Source: a virus
Direction: 5' to 3' (one strand)
Virus record (IMG/VR): IMGVR_UViG_3300010354_000249
Coordinates: 1-36,374 of that record
Length of the DNA: 36,374 bases
Made by a program: the position numbers and the translations under genes. Below are positions 2,932-34,533 of this stretch, in pieces (within the stretch, counting starts at the first letter, position 1; each line of letters starts with the position of its first letter). The notes below the pieces were generated by a model, which was given only the letters and a program-made list of their open reading frames with translations, was not told the origin of the DNA and did not search any database.

Positions 2932-3276
2932 TTGACCGAAAAACGCACCGCCGTAAAAGTTGGCTTGACACCTGACGAGAACGCACACATCACCCGCCAA
3001 GCCCAAGCACTTGGCATGGATCGCTCCACACTCATGCGCCTACGCGCTCTAGGAGACCCTGCAGTCGGCGCTGGTGGCTCCGTAGCCCCTCTCACCCTGA
3101 ACGCCTACCACCGCGCCGTACAGGCTGCTCTAGCCGCCTCTCGTGGCTGTGCACCGCGTCCGATCATCGAGGCAATCGCTGCCGCCGTCCTCAACACCAT
3201 CTACAAACCCCCCACTGATGACAAAGCGCAAACGCGTCAAAGCCAGCCCACAGGAGCTGCTCAAACTGATGGATGA
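2932..3276 (+). CDS. Ribbon-helix-helix / MobC-like DNA-binding protein
   Basis: A 114-residue protein starting at TTG 2932 (MTEKRTAVKVGLTPDENAHI). The N-terminus shows the strand-helix-helix pattern of RHH proteins related to plasmid mobilisation MobC and CopG: KRTAVKVGLTPDENAHITRQ, then ALGMDRSTLMRLRALG. The remainder is Ala-rich and helical. It may be a transcriptional regulator or accessory DNA-binding factor of the early operon. No relaxase is present, so conjugative mobilisation is not suggested. Confidence 0.6.
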   Translation: MTEKRTAVKVGLTPDENAHITRQAQALGMDRSTLMRLRALGDPAVGAGGSVAPLTLNAYHRAVQAALAASRGCAPRPIIEAIAAAVLNTIYKPPTDDKAQTRQSQPTGAAQTDG

Positions 3277-3385
3277 CTACTTAACTGCGCTCTACCACCA
3301 GCACCATGACCCAGAGAGACCGCCTGAACTCGCTGATCGAATCAGCCGCTTTATCAGTCCAGCCGACTTTGGAAAACTTGTCTGA
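3218..3385 (+). CDS. Small hypothetical protein
   Basis: A 55-residue protein from ATG 3218 (MTKRKRVKASPQELLKLMDD), overlapping the end of the RHH gene by 59 bp. The basic N-terminus is followed by an amphipathic helix. It also overlaps the next ORF by 80 bp in another frame, so one of the two could be spurious. Both have plausible amino-acid composition. Confidence 0.4.
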   Translation: MTKRKRVKASPQELLKLMDDYLTALYHQHHDPERPPELADRISRFISPADFGKLV

Positions 3386-3488
3386 TGGCTGCGTACGCGT
3401 TTGCATCGGCGATATCTGTGGCACTGTCTCGTCACATCATCTGGTTGAACCTAAGATCAACCAACTTCGTCAAGCGTTAAATCAATAA
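3306..3488 (+). CDS. Small hypothetical protein before the sugar cassette
   Basis: A 60-residue protein (MTQRDRLNSLIESAALSVQ...) ending one base before the UXS start codon at 3490, a spacing typical of co-translated neighbours. It contains two central Cys in CVRVCIGDICG. Family unknown. It overlaps 3218-3385 by 80 bp. Confidence 0.45.
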   Translation: MTQRDRLNSLIESAALSVQPTLENLSDGCVRVCIGDICGTVSSHHLVEPKINQLRQALNQ

Positions 3489-3489
3489 C

Positions 3490-4425
3490 ATGATCCACCT
3501 TGTCACCGGAGCAGCAGGTTTTATAGGCTCACACCTTGTTGACACATTGCTCAAAAAAGGTGACAAAGTAATCGGCGTTGATAACTTCTACACAGGCAGA
3601 AGCGAAAACATACAGCAGCACTACAGCAACGGTTCATTCATCTTCCATCAAGATGATGTAGAAACAGTTGACATCCATCCTGTCGTTGATCAAATCTGGC
3701 ATCTCGCTTGCCCAGCAAGCCCAGTTCACTACCAGCGTGATCCTCTAAAAACGATTCGCACTTGCTACGAGGGCACGTTAAATATGCTCCGCCTGGCTCA
3801 AAACACAGGCGCCAGAATCCTTCTCGCCAGTACGTCAGAAATCTACGGCGATCCTCTCGTTCACCCTCAAACTGAAAACTATCTAGGCAACGTTAATACC
3901 CTTGGTCCAAGGGCTTGCTACGACGAAGGTAAGCGTATTGCTGAAACTCTTGCCTTTAATTACTGGATGCAGCACAGCGTTTCAATACGCGTTGCCAGAA
4001 TCTTCAATACATACGGACCACGAATGGCTATCGAAGATGGTCGTGTCATCTCTAACTTCATTGTTCAAGCTCTACAAAATAAACCGCTAACGATCTACGG
4101 CAGCGGCAACACCACAAGATCCTTCTGCTACGTCTCAGATACAGTCGCTGGCTTGCAGCACATCATGAACGCCAACGGCGACTGGGTTTTTAATGTTGGC
4201 AACCCACAAGAAATCACACTATCATTCCTTGCTAAACAAATCATCCAAAAAATAAACCCAGCATTAACTTCCACCTACCACGCCAAGCCGCAAGACGATC
4301 CTCAGCGCAGGATGCCTGACATTGCAAAAATCACTGTGTCAACTGGCTGGACGCCACAAGTCACACTTGACGACGGTTTAACACAAACGATAACCTACTT
4401 TAAAGATCAGCTTGTAAATGTTTGA
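3490..4425 (+). CDS. uxs: UDP-glucuronate decarboxylase (UDP-xylose synthase)
   Basis: A 311-residue extended short-chain dehydrogenase. Rossmann motif GAAGFIG at 7-13 and Asp31 bind NAD. The signatures are specific for UDP-glucuronate decarboxylase rather than a generic epimerase: HLACPASPVHYQ (71-82), ASTSEIYGDPLVHPQ (113-127), YDEGK (Tyr144, Lys148), RVARIFNTYGPRM, and TRSFCYVSD (209-217). Thr115, Glu117, Tyr144 and Lys148 correspond to the catalytic residues known in the human enzyme. The reaction converts UDP-glucuronate to UDP-xylose plus CO2. Length matches soluble bacterial forms. It is the first gene of a four-gene overlapping cassette ending in a glycosyltransferase, for which it probably supplies or starts the donor sugar. 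Confidence 0.9.
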   Translation: MIHLVTGAAGFIGSHLVDTLLKKGDKVIGVDNFYTGRSENIQQHYSNGSFIFHQDDVETVDIHPVVDQIWHLACPASPVHYQRDPLKTIRTCYEGTLNMLRLAQNTGARILLASTSEIYGDPLVHPQTENYLGNVNTLGPRACYDEGKRIAETLAFNYWMQHSVSIRVARIFNTYGPRMAIEDGRVISNFIVQALQNKPLTIYGSGNTTRSFCYVSDTVAGLQHIMNANGDWVFNVGNPQEITLSFLAKQIIQKINPALTSTYHAKPQDDPQRRMPDIAKITVSTGWTPQVTLDDGLTQTITYFKDQLVNV

Positions 4426-4657
4426 AATTGACGGCTGGTATTTTTTCTACCAGTCACCTGCGCTAATCCTGACACAAATGCCAGGCGGCGTTAAAACACA
4501 CCGTGCTGTTCAGGGTTTTGTTACAACAATCGATGATGCCAAACTGCTCGCAAGTCGTATAATCCCAGCGATGATCCAAAACCCGGATGCTTACCAGCTA
4601 CCTCACGCCGTCCGTCAAAGCATCCGTCTAACCAATCAGCATGACATCGATCAATAG
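4418..4657 (+). CDS. Small hypothetical protein of the glycosylation cassette
   Basis: A 79-residue protein overlapping UXS by 8 bp and the ParB-like gene by 17 bp, so it is translationally embedded in the cassette. Starts MFEIDGWYFFYQSPALIL, suggesting a compact beta-rich N-terminus, followed by a helical segment. No signal peptide or membrane span. I do not recognise it. Its invariant embedding suggests an accessory subunit of the cassette (inference). Confidence 0.6.
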   Translation: MFEIDGWYFFYQSPALILTQMPGGVKTHRAVQGFVTTIDDAKLLASRIIPAMIQNPDAYQLPHAVRQSIRLTNQHDIDQ

Positions 4658-5408
4658 CCTTAAGCACGATCATAAAAACGCTCGTAAGCGTACTGATCGC
4701 TCTGCAATGCTCATTGCAGAATCCCTCAAGCGTTACGGTGCCGCTCGCTCTATCGTCATCGACGAAGACAACCGTATCCTTGCCGGTAACGGCACCATCG
4801 AAGGTGCTAAAGCCGCTGGCATCAAAAATGTACGCATCATCGACGCAGAAGGTGATGAAGTCATTGCCGTCAGGCGATCTGGTCTTACAGAAGACGAAAA
4901 AGTTGGTCTTGCATTAGCTGATAACCGCACCAGCGATCTCAGCGAGTGGGATGGCGCCATGCTCCATCAGCTCAGCGAAGAGCACGACATCTCTGCTTGG
5001 TTCGATAAAAAAGAACTAGAAGACCTCTTCGGCACTGAAGAAGTCCTAGACGAAGACAGCCCATACACAAACAAAACCAACGCGCCGATCTACGAGCCCA
5101 CTGGTGAGATCCACAAACCCAAGCAGCTTTACGATCCAACCAAAACAAATCAGCTCATTGCTGAAATCGAAAACGCTGACATCCCTGATGACGTAAGGGC
5201 TTTCCTTATCTCAGCCGCTCATCGCCACACAGCTTTCAACTACAGCAAAATTGCTGACTTCTACGCAACGGCACCAAAAGAAATCCAAACACTCTTCGAG
5301 GACTCTGCACTAGTCATCATCGACTTCGAACAGGCAATCCAAAACGGTTTTGTTAAACTCGACCAAAGCGTAGAAGAAGCCTTTAAACAGGATCATCCTC
5401 ATGCGTAA
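4641..5408 (+). CDS. ParB-like domain protein with cassette-specific C-terminal domain
   Basis: A 255-residue protein. Residues about 1-100 are a ParB/Srx-type N-terminal domain: it has the loop ILAGNGTIEGAKAAG (46-60), equivalent to the phosphate-binding loop of ParB, then VRIIDAEGDEVIAVRR and LADNRTSDLSEWD. Residues about 148-240 form a second conserved-looking domain (PIYEPTGEIHKPKQLYD ... HRHTAFNYSKIADFY ... SALVIIDFEQAIQNGFV). Phage and MGE proteins of this layout are often coupled to DNA methylases or modification genes rather than to a ParA partition ATPase, and no ParA is present here. It overlaps the glycosyltransferase start by 8 bp. Likely roles are targeting or gating DNA modification; a CTPase/nuclease activity is possible but unshown. 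Confidence 0.72.
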   Translation: MTSINSLKHDHKNARKRTDRSAMLIAESLKRYGAARSIVIDEDNRILAGNGTIEGAKAAGIKNVRIIDAEGDEVIAVRRSGLTEDEKVGLALADNRTSDLSEWDGAMLHQLSEEHDISAWFDKKELEDLFGTEEVLDEDSPYTNKTNAPIYEPTGEIHKPKQLYDPTKTNQLIAEIENADIPDDVRAFLISAAHRHTAFNYSKIADFYATAPKEIQTLFEDSALVIIDFEQAIQNGFVKLDQSVEEAFKQDHPHA

Positions 5409-6258
5409 TGACTTCTGCGTTTTTATCCTGTCAAACCGTAGACCGGATAACATCAAAACCCTAGAAACACTCCAACGCTCTGGTTACACCGGCAAATGGT
5501 ACATCGTCATTGATGACGAAGATCCAACCGGCGATCAATACAAAACTACCTATGGCGATAAAGTCCTAATCTTCTCAAAGGCTAAAGTCGCGCAAACAAC
5601 AGACTCTTGCGACACTTCAAAAGACAGACGCACTCCCCTATGGGCTCGTAACGCCTGCTGGGATCTAGCTAAAAAGGTCAACTGCCGGTTCTTCTGTCAA
5701 CTCGACGACGACTACAGCTGGTTCGCTTACCGTCGCATCGGTCGTAAAAATCCAGCAGAACCGCCAAAGTATTCCAACTTCCGCGCCGAAAGCCTAGACA
5801 TCATCTTCGCTGGCATGGTCCAATTCCTTCAGGAAACACCATCCGTCTCCAGCATCGCCTTCTCACAAGGTGGTGACTACAACACAGACTCACTCAAAGC
5901 AAGACGAGTCCTGCGTAAAGCAATGAACTCATTCTTCTGTGACTCTGAACGACCATTCAACTTCATCGGTAAATTCAACGATGACGTCAATACCTACATC
6001 TCACACGGTGCCACAGGCAAACTATTCTTCACCTACTGCCCAATCCAACTAGAACAAGCCCAAACTCAAAAGAACAAAGGCGGCATCACTGAAGCCTATA
6101 AAGAAAGCGGCACCTACGTAAAATCTTTCTACACCGTCATGATCTCTCCATCCTCAACATGGATTGAACTCATGGGTCACTCAAACCCACGTCTACACCA
6201 CACACACGATTGGAATAAAGTATGCCCTAAAATCATTCATGAAAAATATCGCCGTTAA
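5401..6258 (+). CDS. TET/JBP-associated-type glycosyltransferase (TAGT / GREB1-like)
   Basis: A 285-residue GT-A-like glycosyltransferase. Visible family signatures in order: FILSNRRPDN (8-17), IVIDDEDP (35-42), the DxD-type metal/donor site LDDDY (101-105), SQGGD (155-159), RKAMNSFFC (172-180), FNDDVNTY (192-199), GTYVKSFYTVM (237-247) and HH (266-267). These match TAGT proteins of phages, relatives of the C-terminal domain of eukaryotic GREB1, which were proposed to glycosylate hydroxymethylated bases in DNA. No TET dioxygenase, cytosine methylase or hydroxymethylase is visible here, so the acceptor is unknown. The gene overlaps the ParB-like gene and follows UXS, implying a pentose donor. 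Confidence 0.82.
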   Translation: MRNDFCVFILSNRRPDNIKTLETLQRSGYTGKWYIVIDDEDPTGDQYKTTYGDKVLIFSKAKVAQTTDSCDTSKDRRTPLWARNACWDLAKKVNCRFFCQLDDDYSWFAYRRIGRKNPAEPPKYSNFRAESLDIIFAGMVQFLQETPSVSSIAFSQGGDYNTDSLKARRVLRKAMNSFFCDSERPFNFIGKFNDDVNTYISHGATGKLFFTYCPIQLEQAQTQKNKGGITEAYKESGTYVKSFYTVMISPSSTWIELMGHSNPRLHHTHDWNKVCPKIIHEKYRR

Positions 6259-6299: not shown

Positions 6300-6623
6300 A
6301 TGGCAGGACATCGCGGTACTAAAGCAGAAACTGAACTACGCGCTCAACGCTTCGCTCGCATCATCGCGAACGGTGGCCGTAGATCAGACTGCATTCGATT
6401 CGCCGCAGAAAACTGGGGGGTTGGTCCTCGCTCCTGTGATCAATACTTAGCTCTTGCTCGTGAACAGCTCAAAGCAGACTGGGACATTGAGCGACCGCAA
6501 ATGATCGCTGACCTACTCTCCCAATGCTCCACACTGCAAATTGAAGCCCGTCGCGCTGGGCAATATCACATCGCACTAGGCGCCATCAACACTGCCGCAA
6601 GACTCGCGCAGCTCTGTTCATGA
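6300..6623 (+). CDS. terS: Terminase small subunit
   Basis: A 107-residue protein with an N-terminal helix-turn-helix-like region (ELRAQRFARIIANGGRRSDCIRFAAENWGVGPRSCDQYLALA) and a helical C-terminus for oligomerisation. It overlaps the large subunit by 4 bp (ATGA). It would recognise the packaging site and load the motor. The 41-bp gap before it contains TACAAT (6275-6280), a possible -10 box for late transcription, but no clear -35. Identification rests on HTH pattern plus position. Confidence 0.75.
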   Translation: MAGHRGTKAETELRAQRFARIIANGGRRSDCIRFAAENWGVGPRSCDQYLALAREQLKADWDIERPQMIADLLSQCSTLQIEARRAGQYHIALGAINTAARLAQLCS

Positions 6624-7969
6624 GCATCCTCGCTGCTGGACCAGAAGGTAATGTCCTACAGCAGCTCAACCATTCAGGTGAACTGATCAATACCGATCAG
6701 CTGCTACAGCGCATTAAAGCTGACCTACACCCTGGACAACTTGCCTTTGTAGACGACAACTCAACACAGATCATTGGCATCAGCGCAGGATACGGCGCAG
6801 GTAAAACCCGTGCCCTATGCGCTAAAGCCGTCATGCTCGCAGCGGTCAATCAAGGGTTTATCGGCGCTGTCATGGAGCCGACCGGACCTTTGATCCGCGA
6901 CATCTGGCAGAACGACTTCGAGCAGTTCCTAGAAAACTACGACATCCCCTACACCTTCAGGGCATCACCGCTCCCTGAATACATGCTCCACTTACCAGGC
7001 GGTGACACAAAAATCCTCTGCCGTAGTTTCGAGAACTGGTCACGCATCATCGGCTTGAACCTTGCTTGGGTGCTTGCCGACGAGATCGACACCGTAACGC
7101 CCAGCATCGCCAATAAAGCCTTCCCTAAGATTCTTGGTCGTCTACGCGCTGGTAACGTCCGGCAGTTTGGCGCAGCATCCACACCAGAAGGTTTCCGCTG
7201 GATGTGGACTACCTTCGGTAGCGAGCAGGCTAAAGACCGTGACGACCGCAAGCTCATCAAAATGCGGTCAGCAGATAACCCACATCTGCCACCAGACTTC
7301 ATCGAGCGTCTAGAAGCCAACTATGACCCAAACCTTCTTAAGGCTTACCTAGAAGGCGAGTTCGTCAACCTAACAACTGGTGTTGTCTACGACCGCTTCG
7401 ACCGCACCAAGCATGTCGTCAGCAGCCTGCCAGATACCGACCGCGAACCGTTACGCATTGGCGTCGACTTCAACGTTGGCAACATGTCAGCCATTATCGG
7501 CGTCAAGCTAGACAGCAATCTGCTCGTCATCGACGAGATCAGCGGTGCTCACGACACCGATGCCCTGGCGCAGCAGATCAAAGCACGCTACCCAGATCGC
7601 AGGATCTATATCTACCCTGACGCGTCCGGCGGTAACCGCAGTACCAACGCTAGTCAAACCGACATCCAGATCCTTGAAAGCTACGGCATGTCGAACCAGT
7701 CACCACGAGCGAACCCGCCAGTGCGTGACCGTGTAGCTGCCGTCCAAGCATTGCTCGAAAACGGCAAAGGGCAGGTGCGCCTACAGGTCAGCCATACCTG
7801 CAAACGTCTGATCGAGTGCCTCGAACTCCAGTGCTACACAGAAAAGGGCGATCCTGACAAGGATGCTGGGCACGACCATATGAATGATGCCCTTGGCTAC
7901 CTAGTGTGGCGTGAGTTCAACCCACTCCACGCTGGTGCTGGTAGAGGTACTGGCATCAGGCTGTATTAG
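6620..7969 (+). CDS. terL: Terminase large subunit
   Basis: A 449-residue packaging motor. ATPase half: Walker A AGYGAGKT (56-63), Walker B AWVLADEID (149-157, Asp154/Glu155), and coupling motif AASTPEG (185-191). Nuclease half, RNase H-like: Asp283 in GVDFN, Asp305/Glu306 in VIDE, Asp334 in YPDASG, and Asp419/Asp423 in HDHMNDALGY. All key residues are present, so it should be fully active. It resembles the SPP1/T4-type two-domain terminases. It packages DNA into the prohead, and its phylogeny could indicate headful versus cos packaging. No cos site is apparent. Confidence 0.93.
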   Translation: MSILAAGPEGNVLQQLNHSGELINTDQLLQRIKADLHPGQLAFVDDNSTQIIGISAGYGAGKTRALCAKAVMLAAVNQGFIGAVMEPTGPLIRDIWQNDFEQFLENYDIPYTFRASPLPEYMLHLPGGDTKILCRSFENWSRIIGLNLAWVLADEIDTVTPSIANKAFPKILGRLRAGNVRQFGAASTPEGFRWMWTTFGSEQAKDRDDRKLIKMRSADNPHLPPDFIERLEANYDPNLLKAYLEGEFVNLTTGVVYDRFDRTKHVVSSLPDTDREPLRIGVDFNVGNMSAIIGVKLDSNLLVIDEISGAHDTDALAQQIKARYPDRRIYIYPDASGGNRSTNASQTDIQILESYGMSNQSPRANPPVRDRVAAVQALLENGKGQVRLQVSHTCKRLIECLELQCYTEKGDPDKDAGHDHMNDALGYLVWREFNPLHAGAGRGTGIRLY

Positions 7970-33580: not shown

Positions 33581-34111
33581 TCAGCCCTGTTGATCGAGCT
33601 GCTTAGATCCGGTGGTGCTCAGATCCTTGTTGTAGTGACCGACCTGCGCGTAGCTCAGCACAGGTTTCTGGCTCATACGGAAGAACACCATCTGACCAAT
33701 CTTCATGCCTGGATACAGCGGCAGCGGCAGTAGCTGGCGGCTGTTCTTTAGCTCCAGTGTCAGCACGCTGCCATTCCAACCTGGATCTGCGTAGCCAGCG
33801 TGAAGGTTTTCGTATCCTTCCCGTGCGCGGCTTGACTTGAGGAAGAACAAGCCAGCGATGTTTTCTGGCATGTTGAAGACCTCGATGGTCTGAGCAAGGA
33901 TGAACTGCCCAGGCTTTAGCTCGTAGGGATTGTCTGCAGTGCGTCCTGCAATGCTGAGTGGGCGCATGTCTAGGTTCTCTGCAGACTCGATCATGATCGT
34001 GTCACCAAGACGCAGATCAAGACTGGCTGGATTGACCAATGCCTCTTCATAGTTTTGCACCATGCCATCGGTGCAGAGTGCTTTAATCTCGTAGTCGCAG
34101 AGGATGGTCAT
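33581..34111 (-). CDS. dcd: dCTP deaminase (Dcd/dUTPase fold)
   Basis: A 176-residue protein from ATG 34111 (MTILCDYEIKAL). Motifs: NPASLDLRLGD, then MPENIAGLFFLKSSRAREGYENLHAGYADPGWNGSVLTLELKN, and PLYPGMKIGQMVFF. These hold the SSxAR substrate site and the ADPGxxGxLTLE catalytic Glu of dCTP deaminases. The enzyme turns dCTP into dUTP, feeding thymidylate synthesis, and lowers dCTP. A longer open frame to 34351 would add 80 residues with no match to the family and is not favoured. A terminator follows the stop. Confidence 0.88.
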   Translation of the reverse strand: MTILCDYEIKALCTDGMVQNYEEALVNPASLDLRLGDTIMIESAENLDMRPLSIAGRTADNPYELKPGQFILAQTIEVFNMPENIAGLFFLKSSRAREGYENLHAGYADPGWNGSVLTLELKNSRQLLPLPLYPGMKIGQMVFFRMSQKPVLSYAQVGHYNKDLSTTGSKQLDQQG

Positions 34112-34347
34112 TGATTGGTTTGACTGAAGCTTGAATTTAGTTGTTGGGGACTTACAAACGGAAAGCTGCTTACACGGTGCCTCTAAAAGGGAGAACGCAC
34201 CCCTGTGGAACCACACCGCGTCCTCGCTGGGAACCTGTAGCTTCACGCGCTTGGGAGTCGTACTCCACCAGTTAGCCCGACCAGTGGCATCCCCTGCGCA
34301 GGCAGCAAGCCGAACAACGGGATCAGTTGCTCCGTTACGCCCCACCA
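34112..34347 (-). other. Structured leader region upstream of dcd, no convincing gene
   Basis: About 236 bp between a small ORF and dcd. The frame is open but its translation does not look like a protein family. On the minus strand several hairpins are visible: CCTGCGCAGG palindrome, GGAG-TACGA-CTCC, TGTGG-TT-CCACA, and GGTGC ... CTC-CCTTTTA-GAG-GCACC. It may be a structured RNA or 5' leader controlling dcd. I checked for tRNA and the glutamine-riboswitch core and did not find either. Confidence 0.4.
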
Positions 34348-34533
34348 TCACTGCTCGTGATAATGCTTTGTTGCATCTAGTTGCCAGCAGTATTCAAGAT
34401 AGGCAACTTGCCACTCTGCTTCGCTATCAAGCATATATCGCTGAATCGGACTGAGCTTAATGCAGTCTTCAGCAGGAATACGATCAAACGAAGCAAGAAT
34501 ACGCTTGCAGATAAACCACAAAGCACGAAGCAT
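34348..34533 (-). CDS. Small hypothetical protein
   Basis: A 61-residue protein (MLRALWFICKRILASFDRIP...), Trp/Tyr/Cys-rich with a basic hydrophobic start and an acidic middle. It overlaps the stop of 34533-35210 by one base, so it is co-translated. Function unknown. Confidence 0.55.
   Translation of the reverse strand: MLRALWFICKRILASFDRIPAEDCIKLSPIQRYMLDSEAEWQVAYLEYCWQLDATKHYHEQ

Follow-up and report, generated by a model that had tools for sequence, protein, structure and literature searches.

TAGT glycosyltransferases were reportedly introduced by Iyer et al. in 2013, along with the TET/JBP-TAGT systems. The locus described here resembles those systems in having a TAGT as the presumed base glycosyltransferase, but differs in that no TET/JBP dioxygenase gene was found among the 50 and 35 records of two sets, a search run without a positive control. 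Phage T6 encodes a member of the same Pfam family (PF20691, 3.7e-9) in a gene overlapping one annotated as thymidylate synthase, which we take to be the dCMP hydroxymethylase. T6 also carries the AGT gene, and no partner domain 1 (described below) was detected in it, whereas our locus has a ParB-like protein, a partner domain, the terminase and a UDP-xylose synthase (UXS) instead. The beta-glucosyl-HMC-alpha-glucosyltransferase of T2 and T6 shares with our protein its phage origin, the PF20691 domain and a GT-A fold, and the T6 enzyme places glucose on glucosyl-hmC in DNA (PMC13216743, PMC13390438). Of the T-even glucosyl-hmC pathway, the dCMP hydroxymethylase was not found in our virus or in the relatives searched, one large Vibrio phage excepted, and the alpha-glucosyltransferase was found neither in the relatives searched nor among the main ORFs of the window. 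Solitary phage TAGTs without alpha-GT or beta-GT, present in 288 of 753 genomes, are flagged as potential novel transferases and acknowledged as an open question in the accessible portions of one survey, which report no partner domains, no linkage to ParB or terminase genes and no nucleotide-sugar genes (PMC13216743).

Pentoses on phage DNA, there on cytosine and with the UDP-pentose supplied by the phage, are described for Thanatos (PMC12838424) and RB69 (PMC6024577). Thanatos relies on a UDP-xylose pyrophosphorylase together with further candidate enzymes, whereas our virus encodes a UXS that would decarboxylate UDP-glucuronate and a TAGT as the predicted transferase. The coupling of a ParB-fold domain to a modifying enzyme also has a precedent in phage ParB-methyltransferase fusions (phrog_498; PMC12704722); here the effector is instead a glycosyltransferase specified by a separate gene and joined through a dedicated partner domain. 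The word "glycosyltransferase" is absent from the main text of the PNAS survey of ParB-fold proteins (PMC12704722). In the literature searched we met no description of a UXS-ParB-TAGT combination, in agreement with the suggestion made from the sequence alone, while an earlier mention of ParB-TAGT (e.g. in Iyer et al. 2013) is possible. Solitary TAGTs here gain a concrete module, with dedicated partner domains, a ParB-fold protein and a recurrent place beside the terminase genes, and at some loci a dedicated nucleotide-sugar supply which predicts the sugar. This module is well supported and very probably real; DNA as its acceptor is supported only moderately.

The window, that is, the whole stretch of DNA analysed, is the 36,374-base IMG/VR virus record IMGVR_UViG_3300010354_000249. 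It derives from a cyanobacterial virus, the terminase of which shares 73–75% DNA identity with those of cyanosiphophages S-H1 and KBS-S-2A; neither of these two phages carries a TAGT. The sequence-only reading had proposed a single unit of four rightward genes overlapping by 8, 17 and 8 nt (Table 1; the third gene, for the ParB-like protein, occupies 4641–5408). The overlaps proved exact, but the gene run extends beyond what was first stated: a 60-aa ORF stops 1 nt before UXS, and the TerS/TerL genes begin 41 nt after TAGT. Conservation of both reading frames, ParB and TAGT, across 22 close relatives (80–99% identity for TAGT, 75–99% for the C-terminal part of ParB) shows that they do not represent a chance ORF pattern. 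ORF79 could not be accepted as a homolog of the approximately 70-aa ORF of the relatives, as the sequence link is marginal and suggestive only (profile score 11.6 bits; 1,000 shuffles reach at most 7.6). Shortly upstream of the cassette a gene for a NikA-like protein with a TTG start (2932–3276) is conserved in part of the clade.

Table 1. Features of the UXS-ParB-TAGT cassette and its flanks in the window
Feature	Position	Strand	Basis or remark
60-aa ORF	3306..3488	+	Left border of the UXS insertion relative to relatives
UXS: UDP-glucuronate decarboxylase (UDP-xylose synthase), putative donor supply gene	3490..4425	+	PDB match to human UXS1; catalytic residues
ORF79, small protein	4418..4657	+	Relatives have an ORF of about 70 aa at the same place
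ParB/sulfiredoxin-fold N-terminal domain	4641..5027	+	phrog_620, phrog_498; PDB ParB family
TAGT partner domain 1, without Pfam family	5028..5405	+	Co-occurrence with TAGT; alignment of ParB proteins
TAGT glycosyltransferase, GT-A; DxD region 5704-5712, HH motif 6196-6201	5401..6258	+	PF20691
TerS-like small protein directly before large terminase	6300..6623	+	phrog_34910 (family without assigned function); TerS by position only
Large terminase, conserved neighbor of ParB-TAGT	6620..7969	+	Pfam Terminase_6N/6C; synteny

The identities assigned to the three larger genes were upheld. Gp4 of the cassette is a TAGT [PF20691, 2e-31; 109.8 bits against a gathering score of 27.5], its AlphaFold2 model (pLDDT 88) matching in Foldseek the GT-A folds of SpsA, SunS and GnT-I. 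Residues D103, D104, H266 and H267 are invariant in the family alignment, and the acidic metal-binding motif fits GT-A. The PHROG label "beta-glucosyl-HMC-alpha-glucosyltransferase" was not accepted as the function of this protein. The product of the first gene is a UXS, with human UXS1 as its best PDB match [8e-105] and the next SDR protein far behind [9e-38]; it retains the NAD motif and the TSE...YxxxK signature (T115-S116-E117, Y144 and K148 conserved). No UDP-glucose dehydrogenase was detected among the window ORFs scanned, and the enzyme needs UDP-glucuronate from the host. The third protein is ParB-like [phrog_620, 1e-33], with a weaker match to the ParB-methyltransferase proteins of phrog_498; it has no Pfam match, and the profile of its family matches ParB/Noc/Spo0J structures at 3e-10. 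In the alignment the P-motif, GHxR in relatives, reads GNGT in the window and six close relatives, so that the arginine expected of a ParABS-type ParB is replaced; no parA was named among the cassette neighbors in a general family scan. As this arginine is needed for NTP binding in the ParB-fold proteins studied (PMC12704722), its replacement suggests that NTP binding has been lost from the ParB of the window's clade, which counts against the reading proposed below.

Among ParB proteins of TAGT loci the N-terminal ParB part is variable and the C-terminal domain conserved. The latter, which we call partner domain 1, comprises the last 125 or so residues, bears the motif YTxK..P.YEP...RHxxFNYxxIAxYY...ExSALVIID and is matched by no Pfam model. 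Structure gave it no identity either, the model of ParB having a pTM of 0.43 and no informative match. Its distribution follows that of TAGT: in the viral scan all 78 further loci among the matches listed (a few of them re-cut copies of contigs seen earlier) carry a TAGT no more than 1.5 kb downstream; in bacterial genomes 48/48 among the matches listed have a TAGT, 46 of them adjacent, and all 28 GenBank phage records with the domain are also TAGT records. These counts describe the closest matches rather than frequencies, the viral contigs being fragmentary and partly redundant. Conversely, 85 of 87 TAGT loci possess the domain, the remaining two starting at a contig end. It appears as a stand-alone protein in about one locus per five or six (for example in Vibrio jumbo phages or L077, in which it follows TAGT), some of these being cut by contig ends. 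Partner domain 1 is apparently an obligate companion of TAGT, and the strictness of the pairing suggests one functional complex.

A second TAGT subfamily offers a parallel. A scan with TAGT-2 returned 80 loci, with ParB in 75 of the 79 counted. Here the C-terminus of ParB carries a different domain of about 65 residues (partner domain 2, consensus WEGMPEFEQEDKTAYRKIIVHFETEEDVEEFAKLI...) which ends at the start of TAGT (median distance -2 nt), is found in 76/79 TAGT-2 loci against 0/206 TAGT-1 loci, and in seven ORFs forms the N-terminal part of a fused TAGT protein. That two seemingly unrelated partner domains occupy one and the same position speaks for a complex of ParB, partner and TAGT, and together with the natural fusions they bear out the ParB-TAGT partnership that had been surmised. 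A true UXS lies directly downstream in six TAGT-2 loci, and a further 15 have another nucleotide-sugar SDR gene near TAGT. Several of these loci are of unusual build. In L289 (3218–4525) the gene immediately preceding TAGT and UXS encodes a natural fusion of an OCH1-like sugar transferase (Gly_transf_sug) with ParB and partner domain 2, and in L315 (6001–7644) a TAGT upstream of an SDR gene is fused to a SAM methyltransferase domain, which suggests a methylated product. From a reading of the sequence, with no Pfam match, TAGT and the SDR gene of L310 and L317 may be separated by an additional glycosyltransferase gene. Two tandem TAGT ORFs, each with a fused partner domain 2, occur at L378:5569–8287 on a Vibrio phage contig of 148,180 bases.

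Within the window's own clade the constant core is ParB-TAGT-TerS-TerL. ParB-TAGT-TerS is kept in the 22 close relatives and is mostly followed by TerL and the portal gene where the contig extends that far. UXS is an optional, sporadic insertion in this clade, since apart from the window it stands in this place only in L012, where it is cut by the contig end, and is absent from the remaining close relatives whose region is covered; L002 is cut before that point, and L016 has a UXS of 55% identity elsewhere, on the minus strand next to an exonuclease-like gene. UXS is missing from at least 47 of 50 ParB-TAGT records. The clade gave a first impression of UXS as a mere passenger, which was dropped after the reverse search, in which the best 80 viral loci by UXS similarity to the query were searched for TAGT. 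Of these loci, 16 have a TAGT from the second subfamily, most often adjacent or one gene apart; the five checked against Pfam matched PF20691 at 1e-36 to 1e-47. The window's order UXS-ParB-TAGT-TerL recurs in L223, L224, L244, L247 and L291, and the order ParB-TAGT-UXS-TerL in L242, L289 and L304–L307. ParB was matched in 11 of the 80 loci, all of them with TAGT (none without). Several of these contigs are near-duplicates, and we estimate perhaps eight independent lineages. Aphanizomenon UXS records, which carry polysaccharide genes, were excluded from this evidence. It had been conceded that the proposal would fall if UXS were never linked to TAGT or ParB; such a link does exist, and as a functional link it is supported by its reappearance at viral loci that are unrelated and have other versions of TAGT and ParB. 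In most close relatives UXS is missing from the neighborhood.

The surroundings of the pair are equally recurrent. ParB-TAGT lies no more than one or two genes before the terminase genes in P22-like prophages of E. coli, in Lactobacillus phages jlb1 and c5 (where it is beside the cos site), in Nocardia phage NTR1 and in Porphyromonas phages; in halovirus HHTV-2 it is some 3 kb before the large terminase subunit, and in a Vibrio jumbo phage it is located away from the terminase. A large terminase was detected within 5 kb downstream in 93 of the 174 loci with room for it, and among ORFs sampled from the loci without a detected terminase at least 28/60 proved to be terminases. This location suggests a late action on DNA before packaging.

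As a whole we read the locus as a ParB-targeted phage glycosylation module with a pentose donor which acts late on DNA, a tentative reading to which we give somewhat less than an even chance. UXS would turn host UDP-glucuronate into UDP-xylose, as its family does, and TAGT would take its sugar from an NDP donor; the recurrent linkage points to this pentose, or a compound made from it, as the most probable one. Binding of TAGT is probably the task of the C-terminal partner domain of ParB, as indicated by the obligate pairing and by the fusions of the second subfamily, and the ParB fold, by analogy with ParB and its methyltransferase homologs, may bring the complex to DNA about to be packaged, which would be marked or protected late. 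The nucleotide-sugar enzyme may be exchangeable, with UXS serving in some phages; its lack in most close relatives implies that TAGT works without it there. The same lack, the in-place UXS of just two members of the clade and the low share of ParB-TAGT records with the gene would fit a TAGT using a common host hexose beside a UXS that is an unrelated auxiliary metabolic gene (e.g. for envelope polysaccharide) landed in the same operon. We regard this as rather improbable because UXS has come together with ParB-TAGT independently elsewhere among viruses, in two arrangements, and the same slot is also occupied by other genes of nucleotide-sugar metabolism; the recurrent linkage outside the clade makes a pentose donor plausible, and we consider it probable.

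The acceptor is more evenly balanced, DNA and protein standing at about equal chances. The sequence-only reading had seen no base-modifying genes. For a hydroxymethylase this holds in the window record, where no thymidylate-synthase fold (PF00303) was found, and for a C5-methylase (PF00145) in 50 relatives, mostly fragmentary records; the TET/JBP negative was obtained without a positive control. PF00303 was present in one of 50 relatives, a large Vibrio phage, and in none of the 40 records of the UXS/TAGT-2 set, and PF11440 (alpha-glucosyltransferase) in none of 49 relatives nor in the window's main ORFs scanned; the T6 control matched in the searches of the 40 records and of the 49 relatives. 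N6/N4 methylases occur in seven of 50 relatives. Nor is the earlier idea that the host supplies the modified base likely as a general answer, because 885 of 5,426 complete E. coli genomes hold at least 80% of the ParB-TAGT pair, and to our knowledge E. coli makes no hydroxylated DNA bases. Of the pentose-on-DNA proposal, then, the gene identities, the UXS link and the ParB-TAGT partnership stand, while the searches detected none of the known enzymes that could provide a hydroxylated base for DNA to serve as acceptor. GREB1 is a reported protein glycosyltransferase, and that precedent, with the missing hydroxyl source, favors a protein target such as the terminase, the portal, ParB itself or a host DNA-binding protein, ParB then only localizing the enzyme and UXS supplying its donor; the terminase neighbors and the invariant tyrosines of a partner domain tied to TAGT would suit it. 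As a complete account we still judge this unlikely, since ParB domains are otherwise fused to DNA methyltransferases in phages (PMC12704722) and the characterized phage TAGT, that of T6, works on DNA (PMC13216743), both of which favor DNA as the acceptor.

Should DNA be the acceptor, the module would provide a hypermodification route without a known base-oxidation step, of relevance to evasion of restriction and CRISPR. A broader version, in which ParB-fold adaptors widely bring TAGT to DNA lacking a pre-installed hydroxyl, independently of TET or hydroxymethylase, with phage-made pentose donors and sometimes extra glycosyltransferases or methyltransferases at packaging, is possible but doubtful. 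Very improbable, in our view, is an anti-defense or superinfection system directed at incoming or host DNA rather than at the phage's own. Its frequency in E. coli prophages, a moron-like slot and a cassette GC content of 46–48%, lower than that of the terminase and portal genes, would agree with such a role, but PADLOC returned no defense match save a weak methyltransferase match of ParB, and the position next to terminase, shared by unrelated phages, speaks for the virion pathway.

The E. coli prophages open the question to tests in a laboratory host. In K-12 itself the Rac prophage gene ynaK (L095:5878–6141) is a truncated ParB of the intact ParB-TAGT prophages, 96% identical over 75 residues, from which TAGT is gone; ydaY, considered as a TAGT remnant, gave no match. 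Elsewhere in the window a dCTP deaminase-like gene (33581–34351, minus strand; PF22769, phrog_1663) may influence the pools of cytosine nucleotides.
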